34,400 nt of DNA, taken from the NCBI GenBank assembly GCA_005800325.1, contig SYFR01000362.1, positions 1-34,400 on the forward strand, given 5' to 3'. The translations under genes and the position numbers were made by a program. Below are positions 14,620-34,400 of this stretch, piece by piece. The notes under the pieces are model-generated. The model saw only the letters and a list, made by a program, of their open reading frames with translations, did no database searches and was not told where the DNA came from. This stretch comes from Myxococcales bacterium. Its GTDB lineage: Bacteria; Myxococcota_A; Polyangia; Polyangiales; Polyangiaceae. Position 1 is the first letter of the stretch. Each line of letters begins with the position of its first letter.

Positions 14620-15486
14620 TCAGTCCGATAGATTGATCGCCGTCGGGAGCTGGACGCTCGCGAACACGGTCAACATCGGATTGAAGTGGAACGAGCGATC
14701 GTTCGTGTCGATGGCGTCGTCCGGAAAGTTCGATTCCGGGCCGGCGATGTCAAAGCCCGAGGTGTTCCACGACAAGGGCGTCGCGCGGAACTCGGCGCCG
14801 AAGGACATGTAGTCCGTCGGATAGAAGTTGAACCCGAGCCCGAACGTCGCCGTTCCGGTCACGCGCGAGTCGAGCTTGAAATTGTCCGCGCACTCGCCCT
14901 TCGTGCATTCCGCGCGCTCGTTCAACCCGACGACCGCGGGGCCGAGAAACAGGCTGATGTCCGCGTCCATGAAGAAGGCACCGAAGAACGAAAACTTGCC
15001 GCGAAACGGGACCACCGTGAGCTGCGGCGCAAGCATCCACACGATGCTCCCGAGCTGGCTCTCCTCAAGACAGTTCGGTCCGCGGCACAGGCTCACCGCC
15101 GTGCGGCGACAAGCGAGCGTGTTCGGATTGTCCGCGCAGTCGCGACCGTCTACCGCCTTGGTCTGAAGCTCGTCGGCGAGCCCAGCGTTGTAGCTGATGC
15201 CGCCAGCACCGAAGAGGCCGGCCCCGAGCGAGTCCGTGAAGTGGTAGTTCGCCCGCGCGCCGAAGAGCACGTTGCGACGGAACTCGTCGAGCAGCGTGAA
15301 CGTCGCGTGTGGCGCGATGTCGAAGCGTCCGTCGCGGTGGAGCCGGAGGCGTCGCACGGCGGGGGCGCCCGCGAGGGGCCCAGTGATCTGGAGCTCCTGG
15401 GCGCTCGCGTCGGGCGCGGACGCGAGGACGATCGTGCCGGCAGTCAGACCGGCGAGTAGAGCGAGGCGACTCGTCATGTTCTTCAT
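14620..15486 (-). CDS. Outer-membrane beta-barrel protein of the myxobacterial type (GltA/GltB candidate)
   Basis: 288 residues from ATG 15486, preceded by GAAGGG at 7 nt; the ATG at 15504, which overlaps the upstream stop, is the alternative. The signal peptide (MKNMTSRLALLAGL...ASAPDASAQ) is followed by strands typical of small barrels: GRFDIAPHATFTLLDEFRRN, VLFGARANYHFTDSLGAGLFG, LTVVPFRGKFSFFGAFFMDADISL, ATFGLGFNFYPTDYMSFGAEFRA, NPMLTVFASVQLPTAI. This matches the 'outer membrane beta-barrel domain' family enriched in myxobacteria. It shares the layout of the upstream gene, so the two are likely paralogues. In Myxococcus, the gliding proteins GltA and GltB are a pair of such barrels; the nearby gltC-gltI run supports that identity here, but many barrels of this family exist per genome. 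It is probably outer-membrane and cotranscribed with its neighbour. Confidence 0.82.
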   Translation of the reverse strand: MKNMTSRLALLAGLTAGTIVLASAPDASAQELQITGPLAGAPAVRRLRLHRDGRFDIAPHATFTLLDEFRRNVLFGARANYHFTDSLGAGLFGAGGISYNAGLADELQTKAVDGRDCADNPNTLACRRTAVSLCRGPNCLEESQLGSIVWMLAPQLTVVPFRGKFSFFGAFFMDADISLFLGPAVVGLNERAECTKGECADNFKLDSRVTGTATFGLGFNFYPTDYMSFGAEFRATPLSWNTSGFDIAGPESNFPDDAIDTNDRSFHFNPMLTVFASVQLPTAINLSD

Positions 15487-15500
15487 GGCAGCACCCTTCG

Positions 15501-16469
15501 TCATTTCGCCAGCTCGTACTTCCAGGAGAATGGCAAGAACACGGACAGGCCGAGCTGCGCCTGGACGTTATTCGTGAAGCTCTTGTCTGGCGCGAGCCAG
15601 GTGCTGGGATCCTGAGCTAGCGGGAGACCCCTCGAGTCGATCCCCGACGCGATCGATGGGTTCTCGAGATCCTCGAGGAACATATAGTCGCGAATTTCGA
15701 GCATCGCGGAGAGGTAGCGCGTGAAGAAAATGCGAATTCCGCCGCCAAAGCCCCAGGTCGGCTTGACCGACCAATCGAAGGTTCGGTTGTCGGGGTCGAC
15801 GACCGCCTTCGGACGCGTGCTCATCGCGCCTGCGCCGGCGAGGAAGTAAAAGTCGTAGTGGAAGATGAAGTTCGAGAGCACCGCGAACTTTCCATACGCT
15901 GGCACCAGCGTGACGTTCGCGTTCACGTTCCACTGGTACTCAGTGATCGGCTGACCCACGCGCGCCGCGCGGCTCGTCTCGAAGTTGAAGTCCGACTCCG
16001 CGTTGAGCTCTTGGTAGAAGTTGCCGTTTACGCCGCCCGCGAGCCAGTTCAGGACGTAATAGTTCAGGCCGACGCCGGGCCCGGGATGCGCGACGAACTG
16101 GTCGTTCATCGTGACGCTCCCGTACGGGTTGATCTCGAAGCGGCCCTTCCGCAGCGCCCAGATCTGCTGCACCGCGTACATGTCCGGCGCCAGCACGCGA
16201 TCTGCCGCGGCCTTCATGTCGACCTTGACACAGTTTTCGGGGTCGATCCTGCAGAGCTCCTCGAGGCTGCCGGCGTCCGCATCTCCGGCCTCTTCGCCCG
16301 CGACGGCGGTCGCGTCTCCGGTCGGGGCCGTGTCTTCCGCCGGAGTCGGAGCTTCGGCGGCGGCGCCCTCGGCGGCCTTGCCTTCTTCGGTCTGCGCCAG
16401 GCTCGGTGCGGCCGTGAGCACGAGCGCTACCGAGAACCAGAGCCCCACAGTAGCTTGCTTGATCGCCAT
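15501..16469 (-). CDS. Outer-membrane beta-barrel protein of the myxobacterial type (GltA/GltB candidate)
   Basis: 322 residues from ATG 16469, preceded by GGAG at 9 nt; the upstream ATG 16496 has no comparable site. The signal peptide (MAIKQATVGLWFSVALVLTAAPSLA) is followed by an acidic Ala/Glu/Pro/Thr-rich linker (about 25-75), then a short Cys pair (LCRIDPENC) and the barrel: GRFEINPYGSVTMNDQFVAH, PGVGLNYYVLNWLAGGVNG, YQWNVNANVTLVPAYGKFAVL, FHYDFYFLAGAGAM, WGFGGGIRIFFTRYLSAMLEIRDY and C-terminal QLGLSVFLPFSWKYEL. It belongs to the same family as the downstream gene, with stop and possible start overlapping. It is proposed as one of the GltA/GltB outer-membrane parts of the gliding complex by family and by closeness to gltC-I; which is A and which is B cannot be told without alignment. 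A sigma70-like promoter lies at 16544-16573. Confidence 0.84.
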   Translation of the reverse strand: MAIKQATVGLWFSVALVLTAAPSLAQTEEGKAAEGAAAEAPTPAEDTAPTGDATAVAGEEAGDADAGSLEELCRIDPENCVKVDMKAAADRVLAPDMYAVQQIWALRKGRFEINPYGSVTMNDQFVAHPGPGVGLNYYVLNWLAGGVNGNFYQELNAESDFNFETSRAARVGQPITEYQWNVNANVTLVPAYGKFAVLSNFIFHYDFYFLAGAGAMSTRPKAVVDPDNRTFDWSVKPTWGFGGGIRIFFTRYLSAMLEIRDYMFLEDLENPSIASGIDSRGLPLAQDPSTWLAPDKSFTNNVQAQLGLSVFLPFSWKYELAK

Positions 16470-20166: not shown

Positions 20167-21096
20167 TCACTTCGGGGTGCCCTGACAGCTCTCTCCGACG
20201 TGTCCGTCGACGGTGCCGCAGTTCACCGTCTCCTTTTCGAACGTCGTGCCCTGCTTGACGCAGTACTTTCCCGCGACGACCGCATCACCGAGACCGACGT
20301 TGGGTCGAATCTCGACGCACTCGTAGCCCTCGTCGCAGGTGCAGAAGTTGAAGTTCGCGTCGGCCTCGCTGGCGCCGTCGCTTGGCGGTCCACAGCGGCA
20401 CGAACAGTACACGGCGTCCTCGGCGTCGCGGCCCGAGTTCTGGTCGCACTGTCCGCACACCTCGACGGCGATCGGGATCCCGGTGCCGGGGACGTAGCAG
20501 CGCCGATCGCTCTCCGCATCCGAGAGCGGCAACGAGCACACCTTGATCTTGCACAGGCCCGCGTCCGAGTCGCAGGTGTAGCGGTCCGGGCACTGCGGGT
20601 TCGACGGATTGCAGCGGCAGAATCGGCCGTCCTTGTCGCACACCTCGTTCTTGCACGCAGGGTTGCGACCCATCTCGTCGTTGCAGTTGGCTGGGTTCGC
20701 CCCGCTACCACAAGGAGTGGGATCGCAGTCGTTGAAGAGGACGCCAGCGTCGAGGCACTGTTCGGTGCCATCGCACGCGCTTTCGCCCCCACTGCAGACC
20801 TTCGGCTCCGGCTGACCGTGCTTGCAGCTCGCGCGCCCCTGGAAGTGATTCACCAGGCAGACGCGCGTGTCGCACTGAAAGGACCGCGACTCGATGTTCT
20901 CTTCTTCGAGCGCGAAGCCCGAGAAATTCTCGCGGTACTCGTCTTCTGGGGTGCACGGATCGCCGACACCACCCGCGGGGCATCCGACCAACGCGACCGA
21001 CACGAATCCGCCCGCCACAAGGGTGGCAGAGAGCGCGCGTAGCCCACGAATCCAGCCGCCCACGACGGTGCTACCAACCCGAAAAGATCGCGACAT
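20167..21096 (-). CDS. Cysteine-rich lipoprotein
   Basis: 309 residues from ATG 21096; the track's start (21255) is 53 codons too early, in a divergent promoter region. The signal (RGLRALSATLVAGGFVSVALVGC) predicts a lipoprotein with acylated Cys39. The mature part contains about 30 further cysteines spaced in short loops (CDTRVC, CSGGESAC, CNPSNPQC, CDSDAGLC, CSCRCGPP, CTCDEGYEC), like the Cys-rich, disulfide-stabilised repeats of secreted Myxococcota proteins; EGF-like or similar loops are conceivable. An envelope or surface location is inferred. It heads the minus-strand group with yraN and the secreted protein, and is divergent from gltC, sharing a 270-bp regulatory gap. No known family name is recognised. 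Cysteine number is even or odd depending on the acylated one; at least 30 could pair. Confidence 0.85.
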   Translation of the reverse strand: MSRSFRVGSTVVGGWIRGLRALSATLVAGGFVSVALVGCPAGGVGDPCTPEDEYRENFSGFALEEENIESRSFQCDTRVCLVNHFQGRASCKHGQPEPKVCSGGESACDGTEQCLDAGVLFNDCDPTPCGSGANPANCNDEMGRNPACKNEVCDKDGRFCRCNPSNPQCPDRYTCDSDAGLCKIKVCSLPLSDAESDRRCYVPGTGIPIAVEVCGQCDQNSGRDAEDAVYCSCRCGPPSDGASEADANFNFCTCDEGYECVEIRPNVGLGDAVVAGKYCVKQGTTFEKETVNCGTVDGHVGESCQGTPK

Positions 21097-21169
21097 CAGA
21101 AGGTCATCTCCTACGTCCTCGCGCGAAGGTGACGGCCCCGCGAGGAGCGCAACGAATTGTGGAGCGTCA

Positions 21170-21198
21170 AGGTAGTCGAACGGACGCGGCACCGTCAA
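21170..21198 (-). promoter_or_regulatory. Tentative promoter for the Cys-rich lipoprotein gene
   Basis: TTGACG - 17 bp - CTACCT on the minus strand in the divergent gap. The -35 box is good and the -10 box is poor, so confidence is low. Confidence 0.3.
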
Positions 21199-21277
21199 CG
21201 ACTTGCGCCTCACGGCCTCCGCGCGGCCGAGCCGCCACCGCGGCGGGTGAATCACGCCCGTTTTGGCGATACGCTCG

Positions 21278-21366: not shown

Positions 21367-23103
21367 ATGGCGAAGTCGTACCGCTGGTTGCTCGTGGCCC
21401 TGTCCCTCTCGCTCGGCGCAACCACCGCCGAGGCGCAAGGCAGGCGCGGGAAAAAGAACGGCAAGGACGAGAAGTCCGCGCCCGCGAAGGGCGGCAAAAA
21501 GACGATCGATCTCGACGCCGCCGAGGGCGACGACAAGGGCAAGGCCGAAGACGACGGCCCCGTAACCGCCGGCGAGATGACCGAGGCGGCCGCGCAGGCG
21601 AAGCGCCTATTCGATCAGGAGCGGTGGGGCGAGTCGGCGATGATGCTGAAGCAGGTCGTCGACGGCGAGACCAACGACGACGCCGGCAACCGCCAGATTG
21701 CACAGTATCACCTCGCGATCGCGCTCTACCGGCTCAAGTTTTTTCAGGCCAGCTACGACATTTTTCGCCGCGTCGCGGACAACCCGAACCACCTCAAGTT
21801 CAAGGAGACGCTGCTGTGGCTGGCCAAGCTCGCCACCCAGCTCCCGGAGCCGGCGGACATCATCGGCGCGGTCGGCAAGTACTCGAAGGATCAGGTCGCC
21901 CGCTTCAACAATGATCAGCAGCGCGATCTGTACTTTCAGCTCAACTACCTGCTCGGACGATCCATGTATCGCCAGCGTGAGTTCCAGCAGGGAATCGACC
22001 TCTTCTCGAACGTCAAGAAGGAGAGCCCCTACTTCGTCAAGTCCCAGTTCTTCATGGGGATCTCGTATGTGCAGTTGACGAAGAGCGCACCGGCCGTGCG
22101 CGCCTTTCAGCGCATCATCGACGCGCTCGACGAGGGCATCGAGGGCGTCGAGGACGAGGCACGCATGCGCGATCTGGCGAACCTCTCGATCGCCCGCACG
22201 CTCTATTCGGCGTCGACGAAGCTCGACCAGAACAACGTGCCGAAGATCGACGGGCAGAAGATTGGCTACGCCGTCCAGTATTGGAACCAGGTCGACGTCG
22301 CCAGCGAGTACTGGCTCGATGCGCTGTTCGAGCAGTCTTGGGCCTACTTCATGGCGAGCGACTTTCCGCGCGCCCTCGGCAACGTCCACACGATCCAGTC
22401 GCCGTACTTCCCCAACTCGTTCTACCCCGAGGCGGACATCCTTCGCGCCGTCATCTACTTCATGACGTGTCAGTACGACGACGCGACGTCGATCGTGGCG
22501 AAGTTTCAGACGCGCTACGAGCCGATTCAGAAAGAGCTCAATGCCATCCTGAAGCGCTTCGAGGGCGAAGGCAGCGAGCAGAAGTTCTACGAGTTTCTGA
22601 TCGCCGTGCGCGACGGCAAGGCGAACCTCTCACCCGCGGTCGAGCCCATCGTAAAAATAGCGCTCAGCGACCGCGAGCTGCTTCGCAACATCGAGTACGT
22701 CGCGGTGCTCGATCAGGAGCTCGAGCGGTTCGGCACCGCCAACAAGGGCTTCCAAAACAGCCCGGTCGGAGCCGACGTCGAGGACAACGTCAAGCTCGCG
22801 AAGACCAACGCCATTCGCAAGGCCGGCGAGCTGGCGCGACGCCGCTACCGCCGAAACCTCACCGAGCTCGGCGAGCATCTCCGTAGCGCGCAGAAGATCA
22901 TCGTCGATATCACGAACGCGCAGCGCAAGAAGCTCGACGAGGAGATCGAGGCGGGCAGGTGGTCCCAGGAGGACGCCTACGAGTTCGGCCAAGTGAAACC
23001 CGACGAAGAGCATGTGATCTGGCCCTTCGCGGACGAGTATTGGCGCGACGAGCTCGGCTTCTATCGCCAGGTGATGCAGTCGCAGTGCGGCAGCGGCAAG
23101 TAG
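21367..23103 (+). CDS. gltC: TPR protein, GltC-like gliding-motility component
   Basis: 578 residues from ATG 21367 with AAGGA 8 nt upstream; the track's start 70 codons earlier lies in the promoter region. The signal peptide (MAKSYRWLLVALSLSLGATTAEA) is followed by a Lys/Asp/Glu-rich linker (about 24-75). TPR-type helices follow, e.g. AKRLFDQERWGESAMMLKQVV, AQYHLAIALYRLKFFQASYDIFRRV, LGRSMYRQREFQQGIDLFSNV, FFMGISYVQLTKSAPAVRAFQRII. The C-terminal third is helical and charged, possibly coiled. It should be periplasmic. In Myxococcus xanthus GltC is a periplasmic TPR protein encoded beside the GltA/GltB barrels and needed for gliding. Here it directly precedes gltD, 246 bp apart, which with its architecture supports the call. 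Orthology is inferred from order and build; another TPR protein of similar size cannot be ruled out without alignment. Confidence 0.76.
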   Translation: MAKSYRWLLVALSLSLGATTAEAQGRRGKKNGKDEKSAPAKGGKKTIDLDAAEGDDKGKAEDDGPVTAGEMTEAAAQAKRLFDQERWGESAMMLKQVVDGETNDDAGNRQIAQYHLAIALYRLKFFQASYDIFRRVADNPNHLKFKETLLWLAKLATQLPEPADIIGAVGKYSKDQVARFNNDQQRDLYFQLNYLLGRSMYRQREFQQGIDLFSNVKKESPYFVKSQFFMGISYVQLTKSAPAVRAFQRIIDALDEGIEGVEDEARMRDLANLSIARTLYSASTKLDQNNVPKIDGQKIGYAVQYWNQVDVASEYWLDALFEQSWAYFMASDFPRALGNVHTIQSPYFPNSFYPEADILRAVIYFMTCQYDDATSIVAKFQTRYEPIQKELNAILKRFEGEGSEQKFYEFLIAVRDGKANLSPAVEPIVKIALSDRELLRNIEYVAVLDQELERFGTANKGFQNSPVGADVEDNVKLAKTNAIRKAGELARRRYRRNLTELGEHLRSAQKIIVDITNAQRKKLDEEIEAGRWSQEDAYEFGQVKPDEEHVIWPFADEYWRDELGFYRQVMQSQCGSGK

Positions 23104-23135
23104 GCGCGATGCCCGCAGCGCGCGCGGGACGCTGC

Positions 23136-23155
23136 CCCGGGCCGACTTGCCCGGG
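23136..23155. terminator. GC hairpin after gltC, weak terminator candidate
   Basis: CCCGGGC and GCCCGGG form a 7-bp stem with a 6-nt loop 32 bp after the gltC stop. There is no T-run after it, so intrinsic termination is doubtful; it may only attenuate or stabilise the 3' end. Confidence 0.3.
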
Positions 23156-23210
23156 CGCATATGTGCTCGGCGGTGTAGGCCCGCGGACGACGTGGTGTTT
23201 CTCGGGTAGC

Positions 23211-23324
23211 GTTGACTTTCGGTAGCAGGGTTGACTTTCGGTAGCAGGGTTGACTTTCGGTAGCAGGGTTGACTTTCGGTAGCAGGGTTGACCTTCGGTA
23301 GCAGGGTTGACTTTCGGTAGCAGG
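23211..23324 (+). repeat. 6 x 19-bp tandem repeat upstream of gltD
   Basis: Six head-to-tail copies of GTTGACTTTCGGTAGCAGG, five identical and one with a single change (T to C, copy five). The array ends about 25 bp before the gltD start. Each copy holds TTGACT, close to a sigma70 -35 box, but no -10 box stands at the right distance in the array. A period of 19 bp is not a multiple of three, so it is not coding in gltD. A degenerate copy may precede it (about 23192-23210). It may be an operator array, a slippage-variable spacer, or neutral. Confidence 0.96.
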
Positions 23325-23349
23325 CTCACAGCAAGCGAGCACGGTGGAT

Positions 23350-26300
23350 ATGACTAGATCGAAGGCGGATCGGTTTCGGGTTGGAATTCTGTCGGGCGTC
23401 GCGGCGCTCTCGGCCGCGCTCTTCGCGGCGCCCTCGCCGGCGAGCGAGTGCACCTCGTCGCAAGCTCAGAAGACGCTCGCCGAATGTCCGGGCGGGAAGT
23501 TTCAGTCGAACGTCACGAAGCGGCCCCAGGTGAGCTTCACGACGGCGCCGGAGGCCATCAAGAAGAAGGACCGGACCGACGACATCAAGCCGGTGAACCC
23601 GACCGACATCACGCAAACGGCACAGCGCGACGAGCGTGCCTCGCGCCTCAAGCCAAAGGTGCGAAAGCTCCTCTTGACCGAGATCGCCAACGTCGAGCGG
23701 CTTTACAAATCGACTCCGAAGAACGACAAGGACCGGCCCCAGCTCATGCGGCGCCTCGCCGAGGGCTACGTCGAGCTCGAGTCGAGCGCGTTCAAGGACA
23801 AGGTCGAAGGCGAGGTCCGGGCGCAGGAGCTGCGTGCCAAGGACCCGAGCGGCGCATCGAAGGCGAAAGACGGCGTCAAGAAGGCGACCGAGATCATCAA
23901 GGTCGCGCGCAAGAACGCGATCACTTTCTACAAGCAGCTCAAGGACCAATACCCGAAGTGGTGCCAGTTTCCGGACAACCCGGAAGGGCAGCAGGGGTGC
24001 ATCGACGAGGTGCTGTACTACCTCGCGTACGAATACGAGCAGGCCGGCGACCTCGAGAACGCGCGCTCGGCTTACCTCGAGCTCACGGAAAACTGGAAGA
24101 AGTCTCGCTTCGTGCCGAACGCCTTCCTCGCGTTCGGCGAGCTCTATTTCCAAGAGGCGCAGGGCGACCCGAGCAAGTGGCCATTCGCGCAGAACTTCTA
24201 CAAAGAGGTGCTCAAGTACGACCCTCCGGAAAATAAGCTCTGGGGCTACGCGGCGTACAAGCAGGCCTACGTCTTCTGGAATCAGGGCGACTATGCGACG
24301 GCGATCGAGCAGTTCAAGAAGGTCATCGAGTTCGGTGGCAAATTCCCGCAGCTCCCCAACGCGAAGAGCCTGGCGAGCAGCGCGCGCCGCGACATCATTC
24401 CGGTCTACGCGCTCAAGGGCGATCCGGCGAAGGCGCACGACTTCTTCCGGCCGCTGAGCGGCGATTCGGGCGTATCGAACGCGGGCACGATCACGATGAT
24501 GGAGGCCCTCGGCGCCAACCTCCTCGACACCGGCCACTACGACGAGGCGGTCATCCTCTATCGCGACCTGATGAAGCGGAACCAGGGCGACCAGCTCTGC
24601 TTCTACCAGGCGCAGATCACGCAGGCCATCATGGCCAGCAAGAGCGGCAACAAGCCCGCCATCGTCGCCGAGCTCGAGAAGCAGCTCGGCACCTACAAAG
24701 AGTTCATGTCGAGCCGGCACGAGAAAGAAAAGCTCAAGTGCGCGAACACGACGGCGGCGGTCATGAGCGAGACGGCGATGGCCTGGCACCTCGAGGCCGT
24801 CGGCTCGGGCGGCGTGCGCGGCACCGGCGACGCGAAGACGATGGATCAGAGCGAGAAGCTCTATTCGCTGGTCATCGATAACTTCACGCCCGATCAGTTC
24901 CGCGGGTTCACCTTCCCGCGAATTGTCAAAGAGGACTGGCCGACCGTCTCCAAGATTCGCTACGCGATGGCGGACCTCCTCTACTTTCAGAAGAAGTGGG
25001 AGAAGTGCGGACCGGCGTTCGATCAGGTCGTCGCCGACGACCCCAACGGGCCGAATGCGGCCGAGGCGGCGTTCGCCTCCGTGCTCTGCTACCAAAACAT
25101 CTATGCCCAGCAGCACGCGGACGGCTCGCATCGAAAGGGCGGTGGCCACCTCGACGATGGCGCCGCGAAGGGCAAGAAACCGCAGAGCGACGCCGACAAG
25201 CTTAAGGCGAAGGAGTTCTCGCCCGGGCAGAAGGGCATGATCACCGCCTTCAACCGGTATGTTTGCTACATCAAGCCGCCGGACTCCGACAAAGAGGCGC
25301 TCGAGCAATACGTCGAGGTGAAGTACGCGCGTGCTCGCACCTACTTCGAGGCTCAGCACTGGCAAGAGGCCGCCCTCGCGTTCCGCGATGTGGCCATGAA
25401 CCATCATCAGCTCGACGCCGGGCTCTACGCGGCGCAACTCTACCTCGAGGCGCTCAACGTTCTCGGGACGCGTGTCGATCCGCCGAATCCGGACTGCCTG
25501 CTCGACATGGAGCAGGACGTGCCGAAGTTCATCGAGTTCTTCTGCAAAGATGACAAGCAGAAGCAGGAGAACGAGGAACAGTGCTCGGTGCTCTTCCGCA
25601 TCCAACGCGACGTTCAAGCGAAGCGCGCGGAGGCGCTCGTAAAGAAGGCCGACGGGGGAGCATCCAACCGCATCAAGCTCTACGAAGAGGCCGGGCAGCT
25701 CTACTTCAACCTCTGGAAGCAGTACGGCGAGCCGGCGTGTCGCGATAAGAAGCCGACCTGCGAGAAGAACGACAAGATCCTCTACAACGCGGCGCGCGCG
25801 TTCCAGGCGGCCCGCCTCATCGCCAAGTCGATCAAGATCCGGCAGATCCTCATCAACCCCGAGTTCAACCTGCACCAGACGGAGTCGGCGAAGCTCGCGG
25901 TCTATGAAATCGGCGGCAACTACCAGGCCATCGCGGTCTACGAGCTGGCGGCCGAATGGTACGAGCGATTTGCCAACGAGAACCCCAAGCTCGAGAAGGC
26001 GGACGACGCGCTCAGCGACGCCGTCGTCCTGCGCCTTGGGCTCGGCCACAACGACAAGGCGATCGAGGACGCGAAGCTCTTCGGGCAGCGCTACGGCGCG
26101 AAAGAGCCCGCCAAGGCGGCCCAAATCGCGTTCGCGATCGGCTCGTATTACGGCGAGCGCGAAGACTGGAAGAACGCCGAGAAGGCCCTCTCCGGGCAGA
26201 TTGGCAAGATCGACCAGCAGGCTACCGTCGACGTGAAGCTTCAGGCCCACGCGCTGCTCGGCCGCACCTACGCGGCCCTCGGCAAGGCGCCTCAGGCCGA

Positions 26301-27114
26301 GAAGGAATTCGGCGTCGTTCGCGACACCTGGAAGGATCCGGCGGCCGTTCAAAAGGCGCTCGCGGCGCTCGGCGGTGGCAAAGCCGCCGAGGTGCGCCGG
26401 CTCGTAAAATCGCTCACCGCCGCGGGCGAAGCGCTGTTCTTCTTCGCTGAAAAAGCGCGCGTGGCGCAGGTCGATGCCCTGGCGTTCCCGGTCTACAAGG
26501 GCAAGGGCGATCCGAAGGACGTCAACGACTTCACCAAGACGAAGGTGAAGGAGTGGTACGAGTCCAAAGAGAAGGCCATCGACCTCGTCAACAAGGACTA
26601 CCTCAAGATCGTCGAGCTCAAGCCCGAGCCGCCGCCGATGTGGGTCATCAAGGCGGGAGCGAGCGTCGGAAAGATGTGGGGGCAGTTCGTCGCGGACTTC
26701 AACAACGCGCCGTACCCCAAGGACTGGGACAAAGACGCCTACGTCCCCGGCTTCGATCCGCCGCTGCATTTCCACGAGCTGCGCGCGAGCTACAAGGCGG
26801 GCCTCGCCGAGGCGAGCGAGAAGTACAAAATCCGCGCGAAGGGCGCCTTCGTGACGTGCCTCGGGTACTCGACGAAGTTCCAATACTTCGACAAGGACTC
26901 CCGTTCTTGCGAGAAGTGGCTCAGCAAGGAATACGGCAAAGAGTTTCACCTCATCGACGAGTTCCGCGGTGCGCCGACGCGCGTGAACTCTCCGCTTGCC
27001 GAGCGTCCGCAGGCCGTCGCTCATGACGGAACCTCGCTCGTCTACGACACGCGCGAGCAGGAGGACAAGGAGTCCGGCGCCGAGGCGAAGGACGCAAAGG
27101 CGGGCGACAAATGA
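23350..27114 (+). CDS. gltD: Large TPR protein GltD (AgmU-like), gliding motility
   Basis: 1254 residues from ATG 23350 (GTG 23344 is an alternative two codons earlier). The signal peptide (RVGILSGVAALSAALFAAPSPA) precedes a Lys-rich entry and then a very long helical repeat region with many TPR-like pairs (YYLAYEYEQAGDLENARSAYLEL, KQAYVFWNQGDYATAIEQFKKVI, VYELAAEWYERFANENPKLE, HALLGRTYAALGKAPQAEKEF). AgmU of Myxococcus xanthus is a TPR protein of about 1200 residues that spans periplasm and complex; the size matches. There are many Cys in the mature part (CQFPDNPEGQQGC, CRDKKPTC), so disulfides are plausible, consistent with the periplasm. The stop overlaps the ATG of gltE by ATGA. The neighbour order D-E-F-G supports identity. 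The antisense 1278-residue ORF over it is a shadow. Confidence 0.85.
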   Translation: MTRSKADRFRVGILSGVAALSAALFAAPSPASECTSSQAQKTLAECPGGKFQSNVTKRPQVSFTTAPEAIKKKDRTDDIKPVNPTDITQTAQRDERASRLKPKVRKLLLTEIANVERLYKSTPKNDKDRPQLMRRLAEGYVELESSAFKDKVEGEVRAQELRAKDPSGASKAKDGVKKATEIIKVARKNAITFYKQLKDQYPKWCQFPDNPEGQQGCIDEVLYYLAYEYEQAGDLENARSAYLELTENWKKSRFVPNAFLAFGELYFQEAQGDPSKWPFAQNFYKEVLKYDPPENKLWGYAAYKQAYVFWNQGDYATAIEQFKKVIEFGGKFPQLPNAKSLASSARRDIIPVYALKGDPAKAHDFFRPLSGDSGVSNAGTITMMEALGANLLDTGHYDEAVILYRDLMKRNQGDQLCFYQAQITQAIMASKSGNKPAIVAELEKQLGTYKEFMSSRHEKEKLKCANTTAAVMSETAMAWHLEAVGSGGVRGTGDAKTMDQSEKLYSLVIDNFTPDQFRGFTFPRIVKEDWPTVSKIRYAMADLLYFQKKWEKCGPAFDQVVADDPNGPNAAEAAFASVLCYQNIYAQQHADGSHRKGGGHLDDGAAKGKKPQSDADKLKAKEFSPGQKGMITAFNRYVCYIKPPDSDKEALEQYVEVKYARARTYFEAQHWQEAALAFRDVAMNHHQLDAGLYAAQLYLEALNVLGTRVDPPNPDCLLDMEQDVPKFIEFFCKDDKQKQENEEQCSVLFRIQRDVQAKRAEALVKKADGGASNRIKLYEEAGQLYFNLWKQYGEPACRDKKPTCEKNDKILYNAARAFQAARLIAKSIKIRQILINPEFNLHQTESAKLAVYEIGGNYQAIAVYELAAEWYERFANENPKLEKADDALSDAVVLRLGLGHNDKAIEDAKLFGQRYGAKEPAKAAQIAFAIGSYYGEREDWKNAEKALSGQIGKIDQQATVDVKLQAHALLGRTYAALGKAPQAEKEFGVVRDTWKDPAAVQKALAALGGGKAAEVRRLVKSLTAAGEALFFFAEKARVAQVDALAFPVYKGKGDPKDVNDFTKTKVKEWYESKEKAIDLVNKDYLKIVELKPEPPPMWVIKAGASVGKMWGQFVADFNNAPYPKDWDKDAYVPGFDPPLHFHELRASYKAGLAEASEKYKIRAKGAFVTCLGYSTKFQYFDKDSRSCEKWLSKEYGKEFHLIDEFRGAPTRVNSPLAERPQAVAHDGTSLVYDTREQEDKESGAEAKDAKAGDK

Positions 27115-28643
27115 GCCAAGCGAACAGGGCAAGGACCATGAGAAGCGCGACGAACTCTGCACTGGCCGCCTTGGTTGCGGCGGGGCTCCTCGGCCTCGTC
27201 GGGTGCGGCACCTCTTCGGGGACGATCGATCCGGCCGTGGACCCGACGACGATGGACGTATTGAAGACCGGCGGCGGCACTGCGCTTTCGAAGGAAGCGG
27301 CGGGCCTCTTCAAGAAGGGATCCGAAGCGATGGTCCAGCACGACCGCGCTGGGGACTGGAGCGATGCCCTGTGCGACGACATCGCGAGCATGTTCAAGCG
27401 CGCTGCCGACGAGCAGTCGGACGGAAAGTTCCACGAGGCGCTCTACAACTCGGGCGTGGCGCAGCAACGCTGCAAGAACGACGCTAAGGCGCGGGCCACC
27501 TTCGATGAGCTCCTCGGCAAGGAACCGAAATTCCATCGGGCCCGCGTCCAGGTCGCGCTCTATGAGTTCATCGCGTCCGGCCAGAAGGACGTCGAGAAAG
27601 CGATCGGCGAGATGAACCAGGCCGTGACCGACGCGCAGTTCAAGAACGAGGAAGCGCTCGTGCACCTCGCGATGCTGCAGATGATGCGCGACAACGACGT
27701 CTCCGATGACGACGGCGCCAACGACTTCGAACGGGCAAAGTCGAATCTCCAGCGCGCGCTGGCCATCAACGATTCGTACATGTCGGCGTTCAACCAGCTG
27801 GCGATCTACTACCTCGAGATGGCGAAGAAGAAGGCCCTCGGGGAAAAGGCGCCGAAGGGCAAGCGCCGTCGCGGCATCGCGGTCGCGTCCGAAGACAAGA
27901 AAAAGGCCGACTCACAGGCGCTCGAGCTCGCGGCCCTCGTCTGCTCGCAGGCGATCCGCAAGAACCCCAATTACGCCCCCATCTACAACACGATGGGCCT
28001 CATCTCCGCCGAGCTCGGCGATCTGTCGCAGTCGGCGCAATCGTTCGGCAAGGCGCGCGCGCTCGACGCGAAGTTCTTCGAGGCGCACATGAACTACGCG
28101 GCCGTGAACCTTCAATTCCGTGGCTTCGAGCAGGCCGAGGACGCCTACCGAAAGGCGCTCGGCGAGAAGAGCAACGATTTCGAGGCCCACCTCGGACTCG
28201 CCCTCGCGCTTCGCGGCCAGATCACGGACGCGAATTTCGATTCGCAGATCGCCGCTGTGGCGAAGGAGCTGGACGCGGCGCGCAAGATCGACGGCGACCG
28301 ACCTGAGACCTACTACAACGACGCGATCCTCACGCAGGAGTACAAGAGTAAAACGCTCGATCAGGCCAAGGTCGAGGGGATCCTCGAGCAGTCGAAGACC
28401 TTGTTCCGCGATTTCCTCGCGAAGGCGACCGGCAAGGACGAATACGCCGATGCCGCCAAGCGCGCCGAAGAGCGCATCAAGGAAATCGACGACGTCATCA
28501 AGTTCACGCGAGAGACCCGCGAGATGGAGAAGAAGACGCCGCCGGCCGCCGCACCGGCGCCGGGGGGCGCCAACGGAACGCCGCCGGCCGAGGGCAAGCC
28601 GGAGGCGGGTGCCAGCGCCGCGACTCCGCCGACGAATGGCTGA
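27111..28643 (+). CDS. gltE: TPR lipoprotein GltE (AglT-like), gliding motility
   Basis: 510 residues from ATG 27111 (ATGA with gltD stop); ATG 27138 is an alternative that still keeps the signal. The signal ends in AALVAAGLLGLVGC, giving an acylated Cys32, so it is a lipoprotein, probably on the outer membrane. TPR-like helices fill the mature part: FHEALYNSGVAQQRCKNDAKARATFDELL, EEALVHLAMLQMMRDND, SAFNQLAIYYLEMAKKKAL, APIYNTMGLISAELGDLSQSAQSFGKA, AHMNYAAVNLQFRGFEQAEDAYRKAL. A basic block (GKRRRG) interrupts the repeats near residue 245. The tail is Pro/Ala/Gly-rich. AglT/GltE of Myxococcus is a TPR lipoprotein of about this size needed for gliding, encoded directly after agmU. Matching size, lipid anchor and order make this one of the safer assignments. 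Its own promoter is not seen; it is probably cotranscribed with gltD. Confidence 0.87.
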   Translation: MSQANRARTMRSATNSALAALVAAGLLGLVGCGTSSGTIDPAVDPTTMDVLKTGGGTALSKEAAGLFKKGSEAMVQHDRAGDWSDALCDDIASMFKRAADEQSDGKFHEALYNSGVAQQRCKNDAKARATFDELLGKEPKFHRARVQVALYEFIASGQKDVEKAIGEMNQAVTDAQFKNEEALVHLAMLQMMRDNDVSDDDGANDFERAKSNLQRALAINDSYMSAFNQLAIYYLEMAKKKALGEKAPKGKRRRGIAVASEDKKKADSQALELAALVCSQAIRKNPNYAPIYNTMGLISAELGDLSQSAQSFGKARALDAKFFEAHMNYAAVNLQFRGFEQAEDAYRKALGEKSNDFEAHLGLALALRGQITDANFDSQIAAVAKELDAARKIDGDRPETYYNDAILTQEYKSKTLDQAKVEGILEQSKTLFRDFLAKATGKDEYADAAKRAEERIKEIDDVIKFTRETREMEKKTPPAAAPAPGGANGTPPAEGKPEAGASAATPPTNG

Positions 28644-28741
28644 GGTGCGCGCAGAGATTTTTGGAACCGGCCAACGCGCGGCGTGTCTCTCCGGACGGCG
28701 GCCGCGAGCGGCCACGCCGTGAGCCTGCCGCGAGTTCTCGG

Positions 28742-28771
28742 TTGACCCTGACCCGGCGAGGCGGTTACAAT
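28742..28771 (+). promoter_or_regulatory. Strong sigma70-like promoter before gltF
   Basis: TTGACC - 18 bp - TACAAT, 5 of 6 matches in each box. The predicted start near 28778 leaves a leader of about 33 nt that contains GGAGG 7 nt before GTG 28812. gltF and perhaps gltG can therefore be transcribed apart from gltC-E. Confidence 0.7.
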
Positions 28772-28811
28772 CGTACTGTAAAGAGGGCGTCTTTTTCAGG
28801 GAGGCCATAAC

Positions 28812-29096
28812 GTGACGAGGCAAAACGTGTCGAAGGTAGTGCGAACGACGTTGTCTGCAGCGGTAGCGAGCGCCTTGCTCTTGGCGGCCGGGGCTGCTTC
28901 AGCTCAGGGCGGCCCGAAGAGCGAGGACTCCGAGGACGGCTACGGCTACACGTTCTCCGATGACCCGCTGACGGCGGGTGGTTTCGGTCCGTCCGACAGC
29001 AACATCAAGGTGCGTCCGCAGGGCGTGCGACGGACGCTCATCCGACCGCGCATCTCGTTCGTTCCCGAGATGTTGAAGTCCGTCGAGAACATCTGA
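28812..29096 (+). CDS. gltF: Small exported protein GltF-like, gliding motility
   Basis: 94 residues from GTG 28812, with a near-ideal ribosome-binding site GGAGG 7 nt before it, so the start is well supported. The signal peptide (TTLSAAVASALLLAAGAASA) leaves a mature part of about 62 residues. The mature part is acidic at first (KSEDSEDGYGYTFSDDPL), then has a conserved-looking stretch GGFGPSDSNIKVRPQGVRRTLIRPRISFVPEMLKSVENI read here in two parts; the basic core and the end FVPEMLKSVENI look like a binding surface. Periplasmic location is inferred. In Myxococcus gltF is the small gene between aglT and pglI, exactly this place. The assignment therefore rests on position, size and export signal. 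The preceding promoter and terminator-like hairpin after it hint that it is expressed strongly and partly on its own. Confidence 0.76.
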   Translation: MTRQNVSKVVRTTLSAAVASALLLAAGAASAQGGPKSEDSEDGYGYTFSDDPLTAGGFGPSDSNIKVRPQGVRRTLIRPRISFVPEMLKSVENI

Positions 29097-29128
29097 GTGA
29101 GGTCGCGCGCACGCGATGCACGACGCTA

Positions 29129-29147
29129 CGGCTGCGCAGTGCAGCCG
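29129..29147 (+). terminator. Hairpin after gltF, weak terminator or attenuator
   Basis: CGGCTGC - GCAGT - GCAGCCG is a 7-bp stem with a 5-nt loop, 33 bp after the gltF stop. The downstream sequence has only scattered T residues. It may reduce read-through into gltG and so raise gltF relative to gltG. Confidence 0.38.
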
Positions 29148-29256
29148 GGCTTGCGTTCATTTCGTGTCGGGGCGCTAACGCACGGCGTTCGCGGTCCGCG
29201 GTATTCGGGTCTCAAGAAGTCTTAGTCCACCTGATTGCAAGGGGCATCACGCGCTC

Positions 29257-31248
29257 ATGGAAGCCAAGCAGAATCTCGCACTCACGTTCGCGTTCTATCA
29301 GGGCAACGAGCTGATCCGTCGCGAGACGGTCGCGCAGGACATCATCAAGGTCGGCAAGGATCCGAAGAGCCACCTGCGCGTCGACGACGAACAGGCGGCG
29401 CGGACCCACGCGGTGATCGAAGTCCAGGACGAGATCACGCTCATCGACCTGGGCATCGAGGCTGGGACGATGGTGAACGGCGCGCGCGTGAACAAGTGCC
29501 GCCTCAACGCGGGAGACCAGCTGCAGATCGGCGCCACGGTGATCGTGCTCGAGCGTATCGAGGATGCGGGCGCGGTCGCCGCGGTTCCTGCCCCGGCCTC
29601 GTCGGCGGCCGCAGCGTTCGTTCCCCCTCCCGCAGTGAGCAATCCGTTTGCGGTAGCCGTGACCAGCAACCCGTTCGCGGCGCCGGCGAGCGTGCCGATC
29701 GCGTCGAATCCGTTCGCGGCCCCGAACCCGTTCGCGCCGTCGCACCGCGGCGGCGTGCCGAAGAACGCAGCCGAGGGCACGTACGAATACCAGATCGTCA
29801 AGGCTGGGCCGGCAGTGCCCCCGGAAGAGGTGGAGACGCCGGCGGATGCACTCGAGGTTCGCGTCCTCTGGGGCCGCAATCTCCTGCATGTCGCTCACCT
29901 GTCTCCGCCGCGCTCGTTCTACGTCGGCGAGGCGGAGGGCAAGGGCACGAGGGTTGATTTCTCGGTGCCGTCAGAGAAGCTCGGTGCAGGTGGGCGTGTA
30001 GCCATCGTCGAGGCCGGCGGTGGCAGCGCGTTCGCGGTCGTGCCGGCAGCGGCGGGCGGCTACGCCGAGACCGGCGGTCAGAAGGTGTCGCTCCAGGACG
30101 CTGCGAAGGCGCAGGGTGGTCGCATCGCGCTCAACCGTGGCACGAGCATCCGCATGGAGGTTGGGGATCTCGTGTTCGAGGTGAACTCGGTCGCGGGAGG
30201 CAAGAAGGTCGCGGCCGCGTTCTCGCTCGCGGCGCTCATCACGGGAGGATCGCTGCTCTACATCCTCGGCGCCGGCGTCGGCGTCGGCGGTTTTCTCGCG
30301 GCGACGGCGATGTTCACGCCGGATCTCAACAGCACGTCCGACGATCAGATGACCGACGAGCAGCGGTATCTGATTTCGCACTACCTCGAGTCCGCGGCCG
30401 AGCAGGAGCTCGAAGAGAAAGAGACCGAGCAAGTCTCTGAGGACAACGCCGACAACAAAGAGGGTGGCACCGGCACTCGCGCCAAGGGCGAAGAGGGGTC
30501 GATGGGCAATCCCAACTCGAAGGCGTCCGGCAATCGCTACGGCGTCGCCGGCCCTGCCGACAACCAAGATCCGCACATCGCGCGGCAGGCGGCGCTGCGT
30601 GACGCGGCGGAGTTCGGCATGATCGGGCTCCTGAATTCCGGTGCCGGCGGCGATCCGGATGCTCCGACGGCACCTTGGGGACGCGATGACTCGCTCGGCA
30701 ACGACCCGCTCAGCGCTCGCGGCAACATGTGGGGCGACGCGATCGGCGAGTCGTTCGGCGCCGGCGGCCTTGGCTTGACCGGCATTGGCGAGGGCGGTGG
30801 CGGTCGCGGCGAGGGGATCGGCCTTGGCAACATCGGCACCATCGGACACGGCGCTGGCACCGGCACGGGTCAGGGGTTCGGCTCTGGTCACGGTCGCCTG
30901 GGTCGCTCGCACCGCGCGCGCCCGCCACAGGTTCGCATGGGTGCGACGAGCGTGAGCGGCAGGCTTCCGCCCGAGGTCATCCAGCGCATCGTGCGCCAGA
31001 ACTTCGGTCGCTTCCGCGTGTGCTACGAGACGGGCCTTCGAAACAACCCGAACCTTCAGGGCACCGTGAGCGTGCGGTTCGTGATCGGGCGCGATGGCAG
31101 CGTATCGAACGTCGGCGGCGGCGGCAGCATGCCTGACAGCGGCGTCACGAGCTGTGTGACGCGCGCGTTCTACGGGCTGAGCTTCCCGCAGCCCGAAGGC
31201 GGCATCGTGACGGTTTCGTACCCGATCTCGTTCTCGCCGGCGAGCTGA
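29257..31248 (+). CDS. gltG: FHA-domain inner-membrane protein GltG (PglI-like) with AgmX/PglI C-terminal tail
   Basis: 663 residues. Order of parts: N-terminal FHA-like domain (about 27-105; IKVGKDPKSHLRV, ARTHAVIEV, GTMVNGARV), a linker with four NPF motifs (129-160), a second beta-rich domain (about 195-310), a hydrophobic helix region (about 322-352), an acidic periplasmic stretch, a Gly-rich hinge, and a TonB-like end from about 565 (VSGRLPPEVIQRIVRQNFGRFRVCYETGL). The end matches the AgmX/PglI C-terminal domain, with a likely disulfide Cys589-Cys633. Topology is then cytoplasmic FHA, one membrane crossing, periplasmic tail. In Myxococcus GltG links the inner-membrane motor side to the periplasmic and outer-membrane parts. 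The FHA is atypical: GK replaces GR and ARTH replaces SRTH. No strong ribosome-binding site: AAGGGG is 12 nt upstream. The call is well supported by architecture and order. Confidence 0.92.
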   Translation: MEAKQNLALTFAFYQGNELIRRETVAQDIIKVGKDPKSHLRVDDEQAARTHAVIEVQDEITLIDLGIEAGTMVNGARVNKCRLNAGDQLQIGATVIVLERIEDAGAVAAVPAPASSAAAAFVPPPAVSNPFAVAVTSNPFAAPASVPIASNPFAAPNPFAPSHRGGVPKNAAEGTYEYQIVKAGPAVPPEEVETPADALEVRVLWGRNLLHVAHLSPPRSFYVGEAEGKGTRVDFSVPSEKLGAGGRVAIVEAGGGSAFAVVPAAAGGYAETGGQKVSLQDAAKAQGGRIALNRGTSIRMEVGDLVFEVNSVAGGKKVAAAFSLAALITGGSLLYILGAGVGVGGFLAATAMFTPDLNSTSDDQMTDEQRYLISHYLESAAEQELEEKETEQVSEDNADNKEGGTGTRAKGEEGSMGNPNSKASGNRYGVAGPADNQDPHIARQAALRDAAEFGMIGLLNSGAGGDPDAPTAPWGRDDSLGNDPLSARGNMWGDAIGESFGAGGLGLTGIGEGGGGRGEGIGLGNIGTIGHGAGTGTGQGFGSGHGRLGRSHRARPPQVRMGATSVSGRLPPEVIQRIVRQNFGRFRVCYETGLRNNPNLQGTVSVRFVIGRDGSVSNVGGGGSMPDSGVTSCVTRAFYGLSFPQPEGGIVTVSYPISFSPAS

Positions 31249-31630
31249 CGTTCGCGAGACGAGACGAGGCGAGGCGCGTTCGCGCGGCTCCTGGGTTCGC
31301 CCGCCCCTGCCAGTGAGGGGGCGGGCGAGTTCGTTTTGTGGCGCCGTGGCGACATACGTTGCGGCGCGGCGCGACGACGCGGACGACTGTGGCATCAGGC
31401 TGCGGCCTGGGTGCACGGCGCGCCGCGCGCGAAACGCATGCGCGGGTTGGCCGGGGCGACGGGCGCTACGGCCTCGCGGGTGCGTGGTATTTTTGTGGGC
31501 CGCGCGGGGCGTGTGCCGCTGGACTTCGGCGAGCGGGGAACACTATCCTCCCAGCGCCGTGAAAGGCTTGATCTTGTCTTCGTTACGCTCGCGGTGGACG
31601 CGGGGGACGCAGCCGAGGAAAGGTGGCTCG
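31249..31630. other. 382-bp non-coding gap between gltG and gltH
   Basis: The gap holds the intrinsic terminator at 31297-31336 and then about 290 bp without a convincing ORF; track ORFs here are start extensions or shadows. A weak TGGACT/CTATCC pair near 31520-31548 might be the gltH promoter. No RNA gene is seen. Confidence 0.6.
31297..31336 (+). terminator. Strong rho-independent terminator after gltG
   Basis: A perfect 11-bp stem TCGCCCGCCCC / GGGGCGGGCGA with a 10-nt loop, followed by GTTCGTTTT. It starts 48 bp after the gltG stop and should end the gltF-gltG transcript, so gltH needs its own promoter. Confidence 0.82.
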
Positions 31631-32572
31631 ATGAAGTTTCGTGCGATGTTGACGGGGGCCGTGTTCTTGGTTGCGCTCGGGGGCGGTTGCAGCCGCGCGA
31701 AGCAAGAGGCGGTGCTGCTGTCGAACCAGGGTGACAATCTCGTCGACTCGAACCCGGGACAGGCGATCGGAAAGTACGAAGAGGCGACGAAGCTCGACCC
31801 CGCCAACCACCTCATCCTCTACAAGCTCGCGAAGGCCTACAAGAAGAAGGAAGACTGGGAGAAGGCGGCATCGACCTTGGCACGCGCAGCGGAAAAGGCG
31901 CCCGCGTTCGCCAGTTATTGGTTCGAGCTAGGCAACGCGCTCGAGCAGCAAGCGAAGAAGGGCACGGTGAAGTGGTCGGAGACGATTGAGCCGTACTCGA
32001 AGTGCATCGAGAAGGACCCGAACAAGGACGAGTGCTACGCGCGCTTGGCAAACGCCTACGTCTGGAGCGACGACGATCAAAAGGCGCTTCAGAAGTACGT
32101 CGAGGCGATCGAGAAGCGCCCCGCGTCGAGCGATCGTGCGTGCATCGATGACCCGCTGCTCCTGTGCCCGGTGGCCTATTACACGAGCCTCGCGAACCTC
32201 TTGATGCGACTCGACTACTACAAAGAGGCCGAGCAGGTGCTCAACGCGGCCAAGGAGTTTGCGGATCCGAAGGACAAGCGGCTCTTCAACGTGCACACGC
32301 TGCTTGCGCAGGTTTACCGGGAGCAGAACGACGTCGACAAGCAGGTGCGGGCGCTCGAGGACGCGAAGAGCGTGCGCGAGGATGAGCCGACTCTGCTCTT
32401 CAACCTGGGGATGGCCTACGCGGCGAAGAAGCCGCCGAACAAGGCGGACGCGCTCGCCCGGCTCAAGGGTTTTTCAGCGCGGGCCTGCAAGCAGAAGGAC
32501 GCGGCGAAGTACAAGTCGCAGTGTGAACAGACGCAGACCGTGATCATGCGCTTGCAGGGTCCTGGCGGCTGA
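31631..32572 (+). CDS. gltH: TPR lipoprotein, GltH-like
   Basis: 313 residues from ATG 31631, with AAAGGTGG about 5-6 nt upstream; the track's start 106 codons earlier crosses the terminator region and is rejected. The signal MKFRAMLTGAVFLVALGGGC predicts a lipoprotein with acylated Cys20. The mature protein is a chain of TPR pairs: NPGQAIGKYEEATKLDPANHLILYKLAKAYKKKEDWEKAASTL in two steps, FASYWFELGNALEQQAKKG, CYARLANAYVWSDDDQKALQKYVEAI, YTSLANLLMRLDYYKEAEQVL, NVHTLLAQVYREQNDVDKQVRALEDA. Four or more internal Cys (CIEKDPNKDEC, CIDDPLLLC) could pair in the periplasm. Its place after pglI matches gltH in Myxococcus, but I am less sure of GltH's architecture there, so the name is mainly from order. 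Being downstream of a strong terminator, it probably starts a new transcript that includes gltI. Confidence 0.68.
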   Translation: MKFRAMLTGAVFLVALGGGCSRAKQEAVLLSNQGDNLVDSNPGQAIGKYEEATKLDPANHLILYKLAKAYKKKEDWEKAASTLARAAEKAPAFASYWFELGNALEQQAKKGTVKWSETIEPYSKCIEKDPNKDECYARLANAYVWSDDDQKALQKYVEAIEKRPASSDRACIDDPLLLCPVAYYTSLANLLMRLDYYKEAEQVLNAAKEFADPKDKRLFNVHTLLAQVYREQNDVDKQVRALEDAKSVREDEPTLLFNLGMAYAAKKPPNKADALARLKGFSARACKQKDAAKYKSQCEQTQTVIMRLQGPGG

Positions 32573-32675
32573 AGCGCGCGGGCTGCGCGTGGCTCGCCGT
32601 GTGACGTCGTGGGCGATTTCGCTGCCGCCACGAGAAGACAGCGCATTCAAGTTGGGTGTTCATTCGTCGCCTCAG

Positions 32676-34400
32676 ATGCAAATTACGCAGCGCCTAGCCG
32701 AGCTTGAAGCTACACGCGAGTGGTCTGCATTTGCCGACGCGCTCGAGCAGGCCATAGAGCTCGAGCCGAGCGAGCCGGCAAAGGCCGAGCTCTTCTTGCG
32801 GCTCGGACGCACCCTGAACGAGAAGCTTGCGCGAGGGCCGCGGGCGCTCAAGGCGTTTCAGCAGGCGTGGAAGCTTCAGCCCGCGGACGTCGGCGCGCTG
32901 CACGAGGCGAGTCGGGCGTATTGGGATCTCGCCAAGATCAAGATGGTCGAGACGGTCCTCCGCAAGGGCCTCGCGGTCGTGACCGGCGAGGCGCGTGCCA
33001 AGGTGCTCGTCGACCTCGCCGACGTGCTGCAGGACCTCGGTGATTACGACGCCGCGCGCGAGTGTTGTCACGAGGCTGCGGCCGTCGATTCGCCCTTGGC
33101 GTTCGAGGCCCAGCTGTGCGGAGAGGACTTGAGCGTGGACGCGGCGTCGCAGGCCGACCGCATCGACGAGCTCGTCTCGGACGCCGCGGAGCGTTCCGAC
33201 GTGGCCGAGCGAGCGAGGCTGTTGATTCGGGCGGCCCGGATCGCGAGGCGGTTCGCGGCACCACGCCATGAGGAGCTGTTGCTGCTCGCGTATCAGGCCG
33301 ACCGCGGGGACCGGCAAACGGCTGCGCTCTACGAGGAGCTGCTCGCGAGCGATGGCCGACTCGACGAGGTCATGTCGCGCCAAGTCGAGCTCTTGGACGC
33401 CGCCGGCGGCCTCGAGCGATCGCGGTTGGCCCTTCGGTTCGGCGCGCGGTGGGCAACGCGGCACCAAGACCTCGCACGCGCGGCCGAGTTGTTCGAACGA
33501 GCGGTGCGTGCGGACCCAAGCAACGACGCGGCGTTTGCGTCGCTCGTCGAGTTGTGGGGCGCCCAAGAGGGCAGCGCGGGCAAGCTCCTCGCGCTCGCCG
33601 AGGAGCTCGTTGAGAGCGCCGGTGCCCCGGACTTCGTGCTGGCCGCTGCGGGCAAGGCCTCGTGGCGAATGCTTGGCGACATCGAGCGCGCCGGATCGTG
33701 GTTTGCTCGCCTGGCGCCCGTGGCACCGAACCATCCGGAGCTACGCGCCTATGAGGCGTGGCTCGGGGCACTGGAGCACGAGGCTGTCGGGGCGCGCGAA
33801 CCCGCGACGGAAGCGGGGTCGTGTGGCGACGTGGCTCGGTCGGCCCCACCCGCAGCTGGCGCACTGGCGTCGCCGACGGAAGAGGGCGATGTCAGAGGCG
33901 TTCCTGAGGACGGGCAGGCGGCCTTCAATACGACGGACGTCGACAGAGGGCTTCACGTGAGTGCCGAACAGGGCAGAGACGACGAGGAAAAGATGGTCGT
34001 GGACGAAGGGGACAGCGCGGTGAATTCGGTGGGTGACGAGGATCTCGACAACACGACGGAATTGGACTCGTTGGTCGACTCGGTGAGCGGAGCGGACATC
34101 GAAGCCGTGGTCGACTCGGTGAGCGGAGCGGACGTCGAGACCGTGGCCGACTCGGTGAGCGGAGCGGACATCGAGTCGGTGCCGAGCTCGCGTGAGGCGG
34201 CGCAAGACGTGGCGCGCGCCGTCGCGGATTCGGCCGATGCGGCCCTGGCGGCTCCCGCGGATGCCAGCCACGAAGCAAGCGCTGACGGGAACTCACCAGC
34301 GAGCCCCGCCGAGCCCGAGCCGTGCAGTGCCACGCCGGTCAGTGCCACGCCGGTCAGTGCCACGCCGGTCAGTGCCACGCCGGTCAGTGCCACGCCGGTC
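32676..34400 (+). CDS. gltI: Large TPR protein, GltI-like (AgnA-like), N-terminal part; runs off the window
   Basis: Open from ATG 32676 to the window end (575 codons, no stop), so the ORF track omitted it. It begins MQITQRLAELEATREW with no signal peptide, so it is likely cytoplasmic. TPR-type helices cover about 1-365: WSAFADALEQAIELEPSEPA, LFLRLGRTLNEKLARGPRAL, KVLVDLADVLQDLGDYDAAREC, LARAAELFERAVRADPSND, AAGKASWRMLGDIERAGSWF. From about residue 370 it becomes acidic, Ser/Ala/Val-rich and repetitive (3 x 12 residues, then SATPV repeats at the edge). GltI of Myxococcus is a very large cytoplasmic TPR protein encoded after gltH, so order, TPR content and lack of a signal agree. The full length, and whether TPRs resume after the linker, is unknown. 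Confidence 0.7.
   Translation, partial: MQITQRLAELEATREWSAFADALEQAIELEPSEPAKAELFLRLGRTLNEKLARGPRALKAFQQAWKLQPADVGALHEASRAYWDLAKIKMVETVLRKGLAVVTGEARAKVLVDLADVLQDLGDYDAARECCHEAAAVDSPLAFEAQLCGEDLSVDAASQADRIDELVSDAAERSDVAERARLLIRAARIARRFAAPRHEELLLLAYQADRGDRQTAALYEELLASDGRLDEVMSRQVELLDAAGGLERSRLALRFGARWATRHQDLARAAELFERAVRADPSNDAAFASLVELWGAQEGSAGKLLALAEELVESAGAPDFVLAAAGKASWRMLGDIERAGSWFARLAPVAPNHPELRAYEAWLGALEHEAVGAREPATEAGSCGDVARSAPPAAGALASPTEEGDVRGVPEDGQAAFNTTDVDRGLHVSAEQGRDDEEKMVVDEGDSAVNSVGDEDLDNTTELDSLVDSVSGADIEAVVDSVSGADVETVADSVSGADIESVPSSREAAQDVARAVADSADAALAAPADASHEASADGNSPASPAEPEPCSATPVSATPVSATPVSATPVSATPV
34074..34181 (+). repeat. 3 x 36-bp in-frame repeat in gltI
   Basis: Three near-identical 36-bp units encode VDSVSGADIEAV, VDSVSGADVETV and ADSVSGADIESV. 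They sit in the acidic linker and keep the frame (12 codons each). Confidence 0.92.
34326..34400 (+). repeat. At least 5 x 15-bp in-frame repeat at the window edge in gltI
   Basis: Five perfect copies of AGTGCCACGCCGGTC encode SATPV repeats; the array continues past the window, so copy number is unknown. Perfect identity implies recent expansion. Confidence 0.95.

Follow-up and report, generated by a model that had tools for sequence, protein, structure and literature searches.

Does a single run of glt-like genes encode an Agl-Glt type machine, and is gltC joined to gltD-I by a local rearrangement or as the usual state? The question arises here because in Myxococcus xanthus the corresponding clusters G1 (MXAN_4870-4862) and G2 (MXAN_2538-2541) lie apart (PMC3169522). 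The window, by which we mean the whole stretch of 34,400 nucleotides analysed, is the entire contig C318 of draft genome G000 (4.36 Mb, 551 contigs, 67.6% complete). By gene calls and translations, its positions 21367-34400 carry, on the plus strand, GltC-D-E-F-G, a TPR lipoprotein at the H position and the N-terminal part of a giant GltI (Table 1). Coding signal was strong in all seven same-strand genes. Intergenic gaps of 161-383 bases occur within the run and a 17-pair terminator-like stem follows gltG (31292-31333), so a single operon is not evident.

Table 1. Positions of the features discussed, counted from the first letter of the window.
Feature	Position	Strand	Basis
OMP1, outer-membrane beta-barrel, GltA/GltB candidate	14620-15504	-	TIGR04565, 51 bits, just below cut-off 60
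OMP2, outer-membrane beta-barrel, GltA/GltB candidate	15501-16469	-	TIGR04565, 85 bits, over cut-off 60
Cys-rich lipoprotein, unnamed family	20167-21255	-	Divergent to gltC
GltC, periplasmic TPR protein, signal peptide, 578 aa	21367-23103	+	NF033756 gliding_GltC
19-bp tandem repeat, six copies, gltC-gltD gap	23211-23324	+	TRF, 97% matches; unit GTTGACTTTCGGTAGCAGG
GltD/AgmU-like exported TPR protein, 1256 aa	23344-27114	+	TPR content; position conserved
GltE/AglT-like TPR lipoprotein	27138-28643	+	NF033758; lipobox LVGC
GltF/CglF exported protein, 89 aa, C-terminal end FVPEMLKSVENI	28827-29096	+	NF033764 gliding_CglF
GltG/PglI: FHA, hydrophobic segment 318-338, AgmX/TonB-like tail	29257-31248	+	NF033760, NF033768, PF00498
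TPR lipoprotein at gltH position, 313 aa	31631-32572	+	PF13414 TPR, 5.7e-15; lipobox ALGGGC
GltI/AgmK-like giant TPR protein, N-terminal 575 aa	32676-34400	+	Relatives; cut by contig end

The first-pass annotation had read these seven genes as the M. xanthus Glt set in gltC-I order. That reading held for GltC, GltE, GltF and GltG by curated models, below the equivalog cut-offs; GltD and GltI agree with it in position, size and TPR content, and the GltH label is not supported. The matches of GltC, GltG and GltF were near full length. GltC scored 266 bits against its NCBIfam model (E 5.7e-79, positions 60-619 of 622; cut-off 450), GltG 290 bits against gliding_GltG over the full length (E 4.3e-86; cut-off 650) and GltE 64 bits against gliding_GltE (E 1.1e-17; cut-off 225). 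The window GltF on its own reached a score of 16.8 (E 0.005; cut-off 90), and the same model was matched by all four aligned GltF members (best E 4e-29). All matches of the window to gliding equivalog models lay below the curated cut-offs; the AgmX/PglI tail domain alone exceeded its own, with 79.5 bits for the GltG tail against myxo_SS_tail (cut-off 40). The resemblance to GltC, GltE and the AgmX/PglI tail proposed on first reading was upheld by these profile searches. The FHA domain of GltG was recovered with E 1.1e-12, and a search of the PDB returned no GltC relative and, for GltG, FHA domains only. The 19-bp repeat GTTGACTTTCGGTAGCAGG was absent from the 10 relatives searched and is species-specific among these genomes.

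The gene between gltG and gltI is kept across the phylum. Its position agrees with gltH but its type does not: by published description GltH of M. xanthus has 209 aa and weakly matches an autotransporter beta-domain (PMC3169522, Table 1), unlike the TPR lipoprotein found here, and the assignment is not supported. Comparison with relatives gave 32676 as the best start of gltI. The contig ends inside a 15-bp in-frame repeat that interrupts the gene, which continues on C172 (same repeat at its start, 65-base repeat overlap) and has its C-terminal part on C61. Across the three contigs GltI comes to about 3970 aa, within the range of about 3300-4200 aa of its orthologs. Short tandem repeats stand at several contig ends of this genome (window 34325-34400, C429, C209 and C172). 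Neither GltD nor GltI matched any NCBIfam gliding model; position, size class (1256 and about 3970 aa, respectively) and TPR content agree with their identities.

How general the order is was assessed in 84 Myxococcota neighbourhoods in which 8.5 kb or more lay upstream of gltG, recruited by GltG similarity after removal of six duplicates; some genomes may be represented by both a G and an L locus. Using profiles derived from relatives, gltC-D-E-F was found directly upstream of gltG and on the same strand in 75 of the 84, the GltD ortholog likewise occupied its place in 75/84, and 53 had the exact C-D-E-F-G-H-I order. The neighbourhoods outside the 75 were mostly stand-alone extra GltG copies. 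GltG matches without a nearby gltC (Polyangium L173-L175, G017a and C429, for example) are such extra copies; in G017 a second gltG sits within a full run (G017b). The copy on C429 (L009 7660-9249), in the same draft genome as the window, encodes a GltG-like protein beside isoprenoid-type genes, with 49% identity in the region beyond the FHA domain. A row of unrelated TPR genes assembled by chance might be considered, given that TPR domains are common and that no curated model specifically matches GltD, H or I, yet its probability is negligible: the specific GltC, GltG and CglF matches speak against it and the order conserved in 75/84 neighbourhoods already refutes it.

The C-D-E-F-G-(H)-I order occurs throughout the order to which the window belongs and extends beyond it to other orders and classes within the phylum. 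Polyangiaceae and Sandaracinaceae MAGs are among the named matches carrying the same run; these relatives place the window in Myxococcota, most likely in Polyangiales. The run is also present in G046 (a complete genome of 5.05 Mb), G117, G178, G071, G239, G107 and G040. In other families the GltC model was matched in all 12 genomes searched, with gltC about 7-8 kb before gltG wherever both were listed on one contig. The fullest single-locus set was seen in G040 (C25, L241-L242), where a VWA-type lipoprotein and a TIGR04565 barrel precede GltC-D-E-F-G-H-I and GltJ-like ORFs follow. There the GltC in the same position scored 480 bits, over the gliding equivalog cut-off of 450, and the GltJ-like ORFs reached 128 bits for the N-terminal zinc-ribbon/GYF part and 47 bits for the AgmX-tail part. 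Sampling of the phylum and of the class of G046 yielded no genome that passed the GltG cut-off, and a GltG-alignment search of genome contigs returned 80 loci, mostly from MAGs and Polyangia, with no Myxococcus among them. Given how widely the gene order recurs, M. xanthus, with G1 and G2 apart, looks like the odd one. Judged from gene order, the one-run arrangement looks usual in the phylum, the split set of M. xanthus looks like the exception, and the form in which gltC adjoins gltD-I seems to be the older one. It had earlier been suggested that the run may be an ancestral or a rearranged single-locus form of the gliding machinery; the first of these fits, while a special rearrangement does not, as the order is kept in 75/84 neighbourhoods.

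Two further elements upstream of the run were absent from the first-pass annotation. One is the tandem OMP1/OMP2 pair, whose genes overlap by 4 bases. AlphaFold models gave 8 strands for each at a mean pLDDT of only 64; the OMP1 model matched OmpA/OprF barrels and that of OMP2 was OmpA-like. In G000, G002 and G004 there are exactly two TIGR04565 proteins per genome, namely this pair, and OMP2 homologues lie directly upstream of gltC in G040, G040b and G046b. In M. xanthus the GltC-binding proteins GltA and GltB are barrels of the outer membrane (PMC4488436), and the pair, 5 kb upstream of the run, provides candidates for these two proteins. A 275-aa ORF in G007, between the homologues of 18081 and 19787, had been considered as GltB by size, but it matches HEAT-like repeat families.

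The other element, the Cys-rich lipoprotein encoded divergently to gltC and overlooked on first reading, had no Pfam or NCBIfam match. A five-round iterated HMM search of more than 12,700 ORFs of the fetched neighbourhoods found 61 relatives, all divergent and at most 3 kb upstream of gltC, a few of the entries being extended copies of the same locus. By a cruder Cys-count scan, a Cys-rich ORF was present in 62/74 loci versus 139/550 random segments. Its position and lipobox are reminiscent of CglC/GltK. Both this lipoprotein and the one at the H position are kept across much of Myxococcota and belong to no named family. We tentatively suggest that they could be two further structural parts beyond the M. 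xanthus parts list, perhaps outer-membrane lipoproteins of the complex, a proposal that we hold as possible rather than probable.

It is very improbable, in our view, that the locus is an ancestral core envelope complex (the group B genes of Luciano et al.) of unknown function that was never a motility machine in this lineage. Core clusters of gltC/D/E/G do exist in bacteria without known gliding (PMC3169522), and a CDEFG-only version occurs among Myxococcota (L147, L148, L152 and L164), but G000 also has gltF and gltI of the group A type and the GltA/B-like pair.

A motor for the complex may be encoded elsewhere in the genome. Five MotA/TolQ/ExbB proteins were found in G000, and two TolQ-TolR-TolR sets lie head to head on contig C549 (L094 6711-11168). 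The TolQ of the first, AglRQS-like set (R1Q1S1) had a strong match in 37 of the 39 genomes searched, at 63-87% identity, with a second copy (29-39% identical) beside it in most of them; at locus L158 a gltG is followed by the first set at a distance of 6 kb downstream. In the first C549 set, both TolR proteins retain an Asp in the membrane segment; such an Asp, and proton conductance, are needed in AglQ of M. xanthus (PMC3858216). From its sequence, we take the C549 set to be a putative AglRQS-like motor, located in this MAG on a contig separate from the glt run. The same bin holds a flagellar cluster on contig C256 (L093) with MotA, MotB-like, FlgC, FliF and FliG proteins. As for GltJ/AgmX, searches of G000, which is 68% complete, gave weak partial NF033761 matches, none over the cut-off, and a 1119-aa zinc-ribbon protein on C241 considered for this role turned out to be a TPR protein. 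Of the two components that the first-pass annotation expected elsewhere in the genome, the AglRQS-like motor was located and a recognisable GltJ was not found.

In our view the locus probably codes for the transducer portion of an Agl-Glt type envelope machine, whose most likely use is surface gliding like that of M. xanthus. This reading draws on gene content, order, conservation and domain make-up, which are observed directly: the model matches, the order in 75/84 neighbourhoods, the G040 locus, the presence in the window of the only TIGR04565 pair of the genome, and the C549 motor. Weighing against it are the equivalog scores below cut-offs, a likeness to M. xanthus drawn from published description, the lack of a clear GltJ in a genome 68% complete, the location of the motor on a separate MAG contig, the existence of Glt relatives both in bacteria that do not glide and in Nfs, the spore-coat machine, and the flagellar set in the bin.

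For assembly, coupling and gliding we argue by analogy with M. xanthus, in which AglR interacts with GltG, GltA, GltB and GltC interact directly, and proton conductance by AglQ is required (PMC3169522, PMC4488436, PMC3858216). The inner-membrane AglRQS-like TolQ/TolR motor from the other contig would use proton flow, and GltG would pass force via its periplasmic AgmX/TonB-like tail to periplasmic GltC, GltD, GltE and the H-position TPR lipoprotein. The giant GltI may be a further TPR scaffold, and the periplasmic TPR proteins would in turn engage the outer-membrane barrel pair OMP1/OMP2.

The same set of parts might instead be a co-ortholog of Glt and Nfs that now moves a surface polymer (capsule or spore-coat-like wrapping) rather than serving gliding. 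Nfs is a Glt paralog encoded in one locus and uses the common AglRQS motor (PMC3858216); moreover, the Glt/Nfs split is thought to be recent (PMC3169522), so that Polyangiales clusters may predate it, and the flagellar genes of G000 are also in keeping with this alternative. Nonetheless, we judge it unlikely. Nfs has no paralogs of GltI, J and K (PMC3858216), and its hallmark, A to H genes without a GltI paralog, is not that of the window locus; the presence of gltI, here and in most relatives, favours the Glt side. In a GltC tree the window groups with members of its genus and family, within a well-supported set of Polyangiales-type loci, and the paralog clusters G040b and G046b fall outside that set, but on long branches. 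These more divergent-looking second clusters coexist with a window-type cluster in other genomes, which also speaks for the Agl-Glt reading over a polymer-moving one.

These results make the split arrangement of M. xanthus look like the exception and provide a compact ordered gene set to seek in uncultured Myxococcota; the two unnamed lipoproteins and the barrel pair are flagged as testable parts of a gliding or surface-transport machine. Linkage of G1 and G2 in Anaeromyxobacter, of the group B core in one region and of nfsA-H in one region has already been published (PMC3169522, PMC3858216); new here are how widely the order is fixed, the lipoprotein at the H position, the Cys-rich lipoprotein and the presence of the barrel pair within one window with the run.

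Compared with known systems, the locus resembles M. xanthus G1/G2 in the gltD-E-F-G order, a GltI-sized TPR protein after G/H, the GltC family and a tandem pair of putative outer-membrane barrels near gltC. In contrast to M. xanthus, gltC is joined to gltD, a TPR lipoprotein takes the H position, the barrel pair is on the opposite strand, and gltJ is unrecognised beside gltI in genomes of the window's order. The complete genome G046 has the same C-to-I run, whereas none of its TIGR04565 proteins adjoins that run; they are found at a second gltC cluster and at other places. With the nfsA-H sporulation locus, which is syntenic to glt and homologous to gltA-H (PMC3858216), the window locus shares the placement of A to H genes (A and B as candidates, H by position) in one region, and it differs in having gltI. 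Clusters combining gltC with gltD/E/G in one region are also known from Geobacter and non-Deltaproteobacteria (PMC3169522). Similar in this respect are the four Anaeromyxobacter in which G1 and G2 are grouped (PMC3169522; Luciano 2011, Figure S1), where, as in the window, both clusters are found on one stretch.
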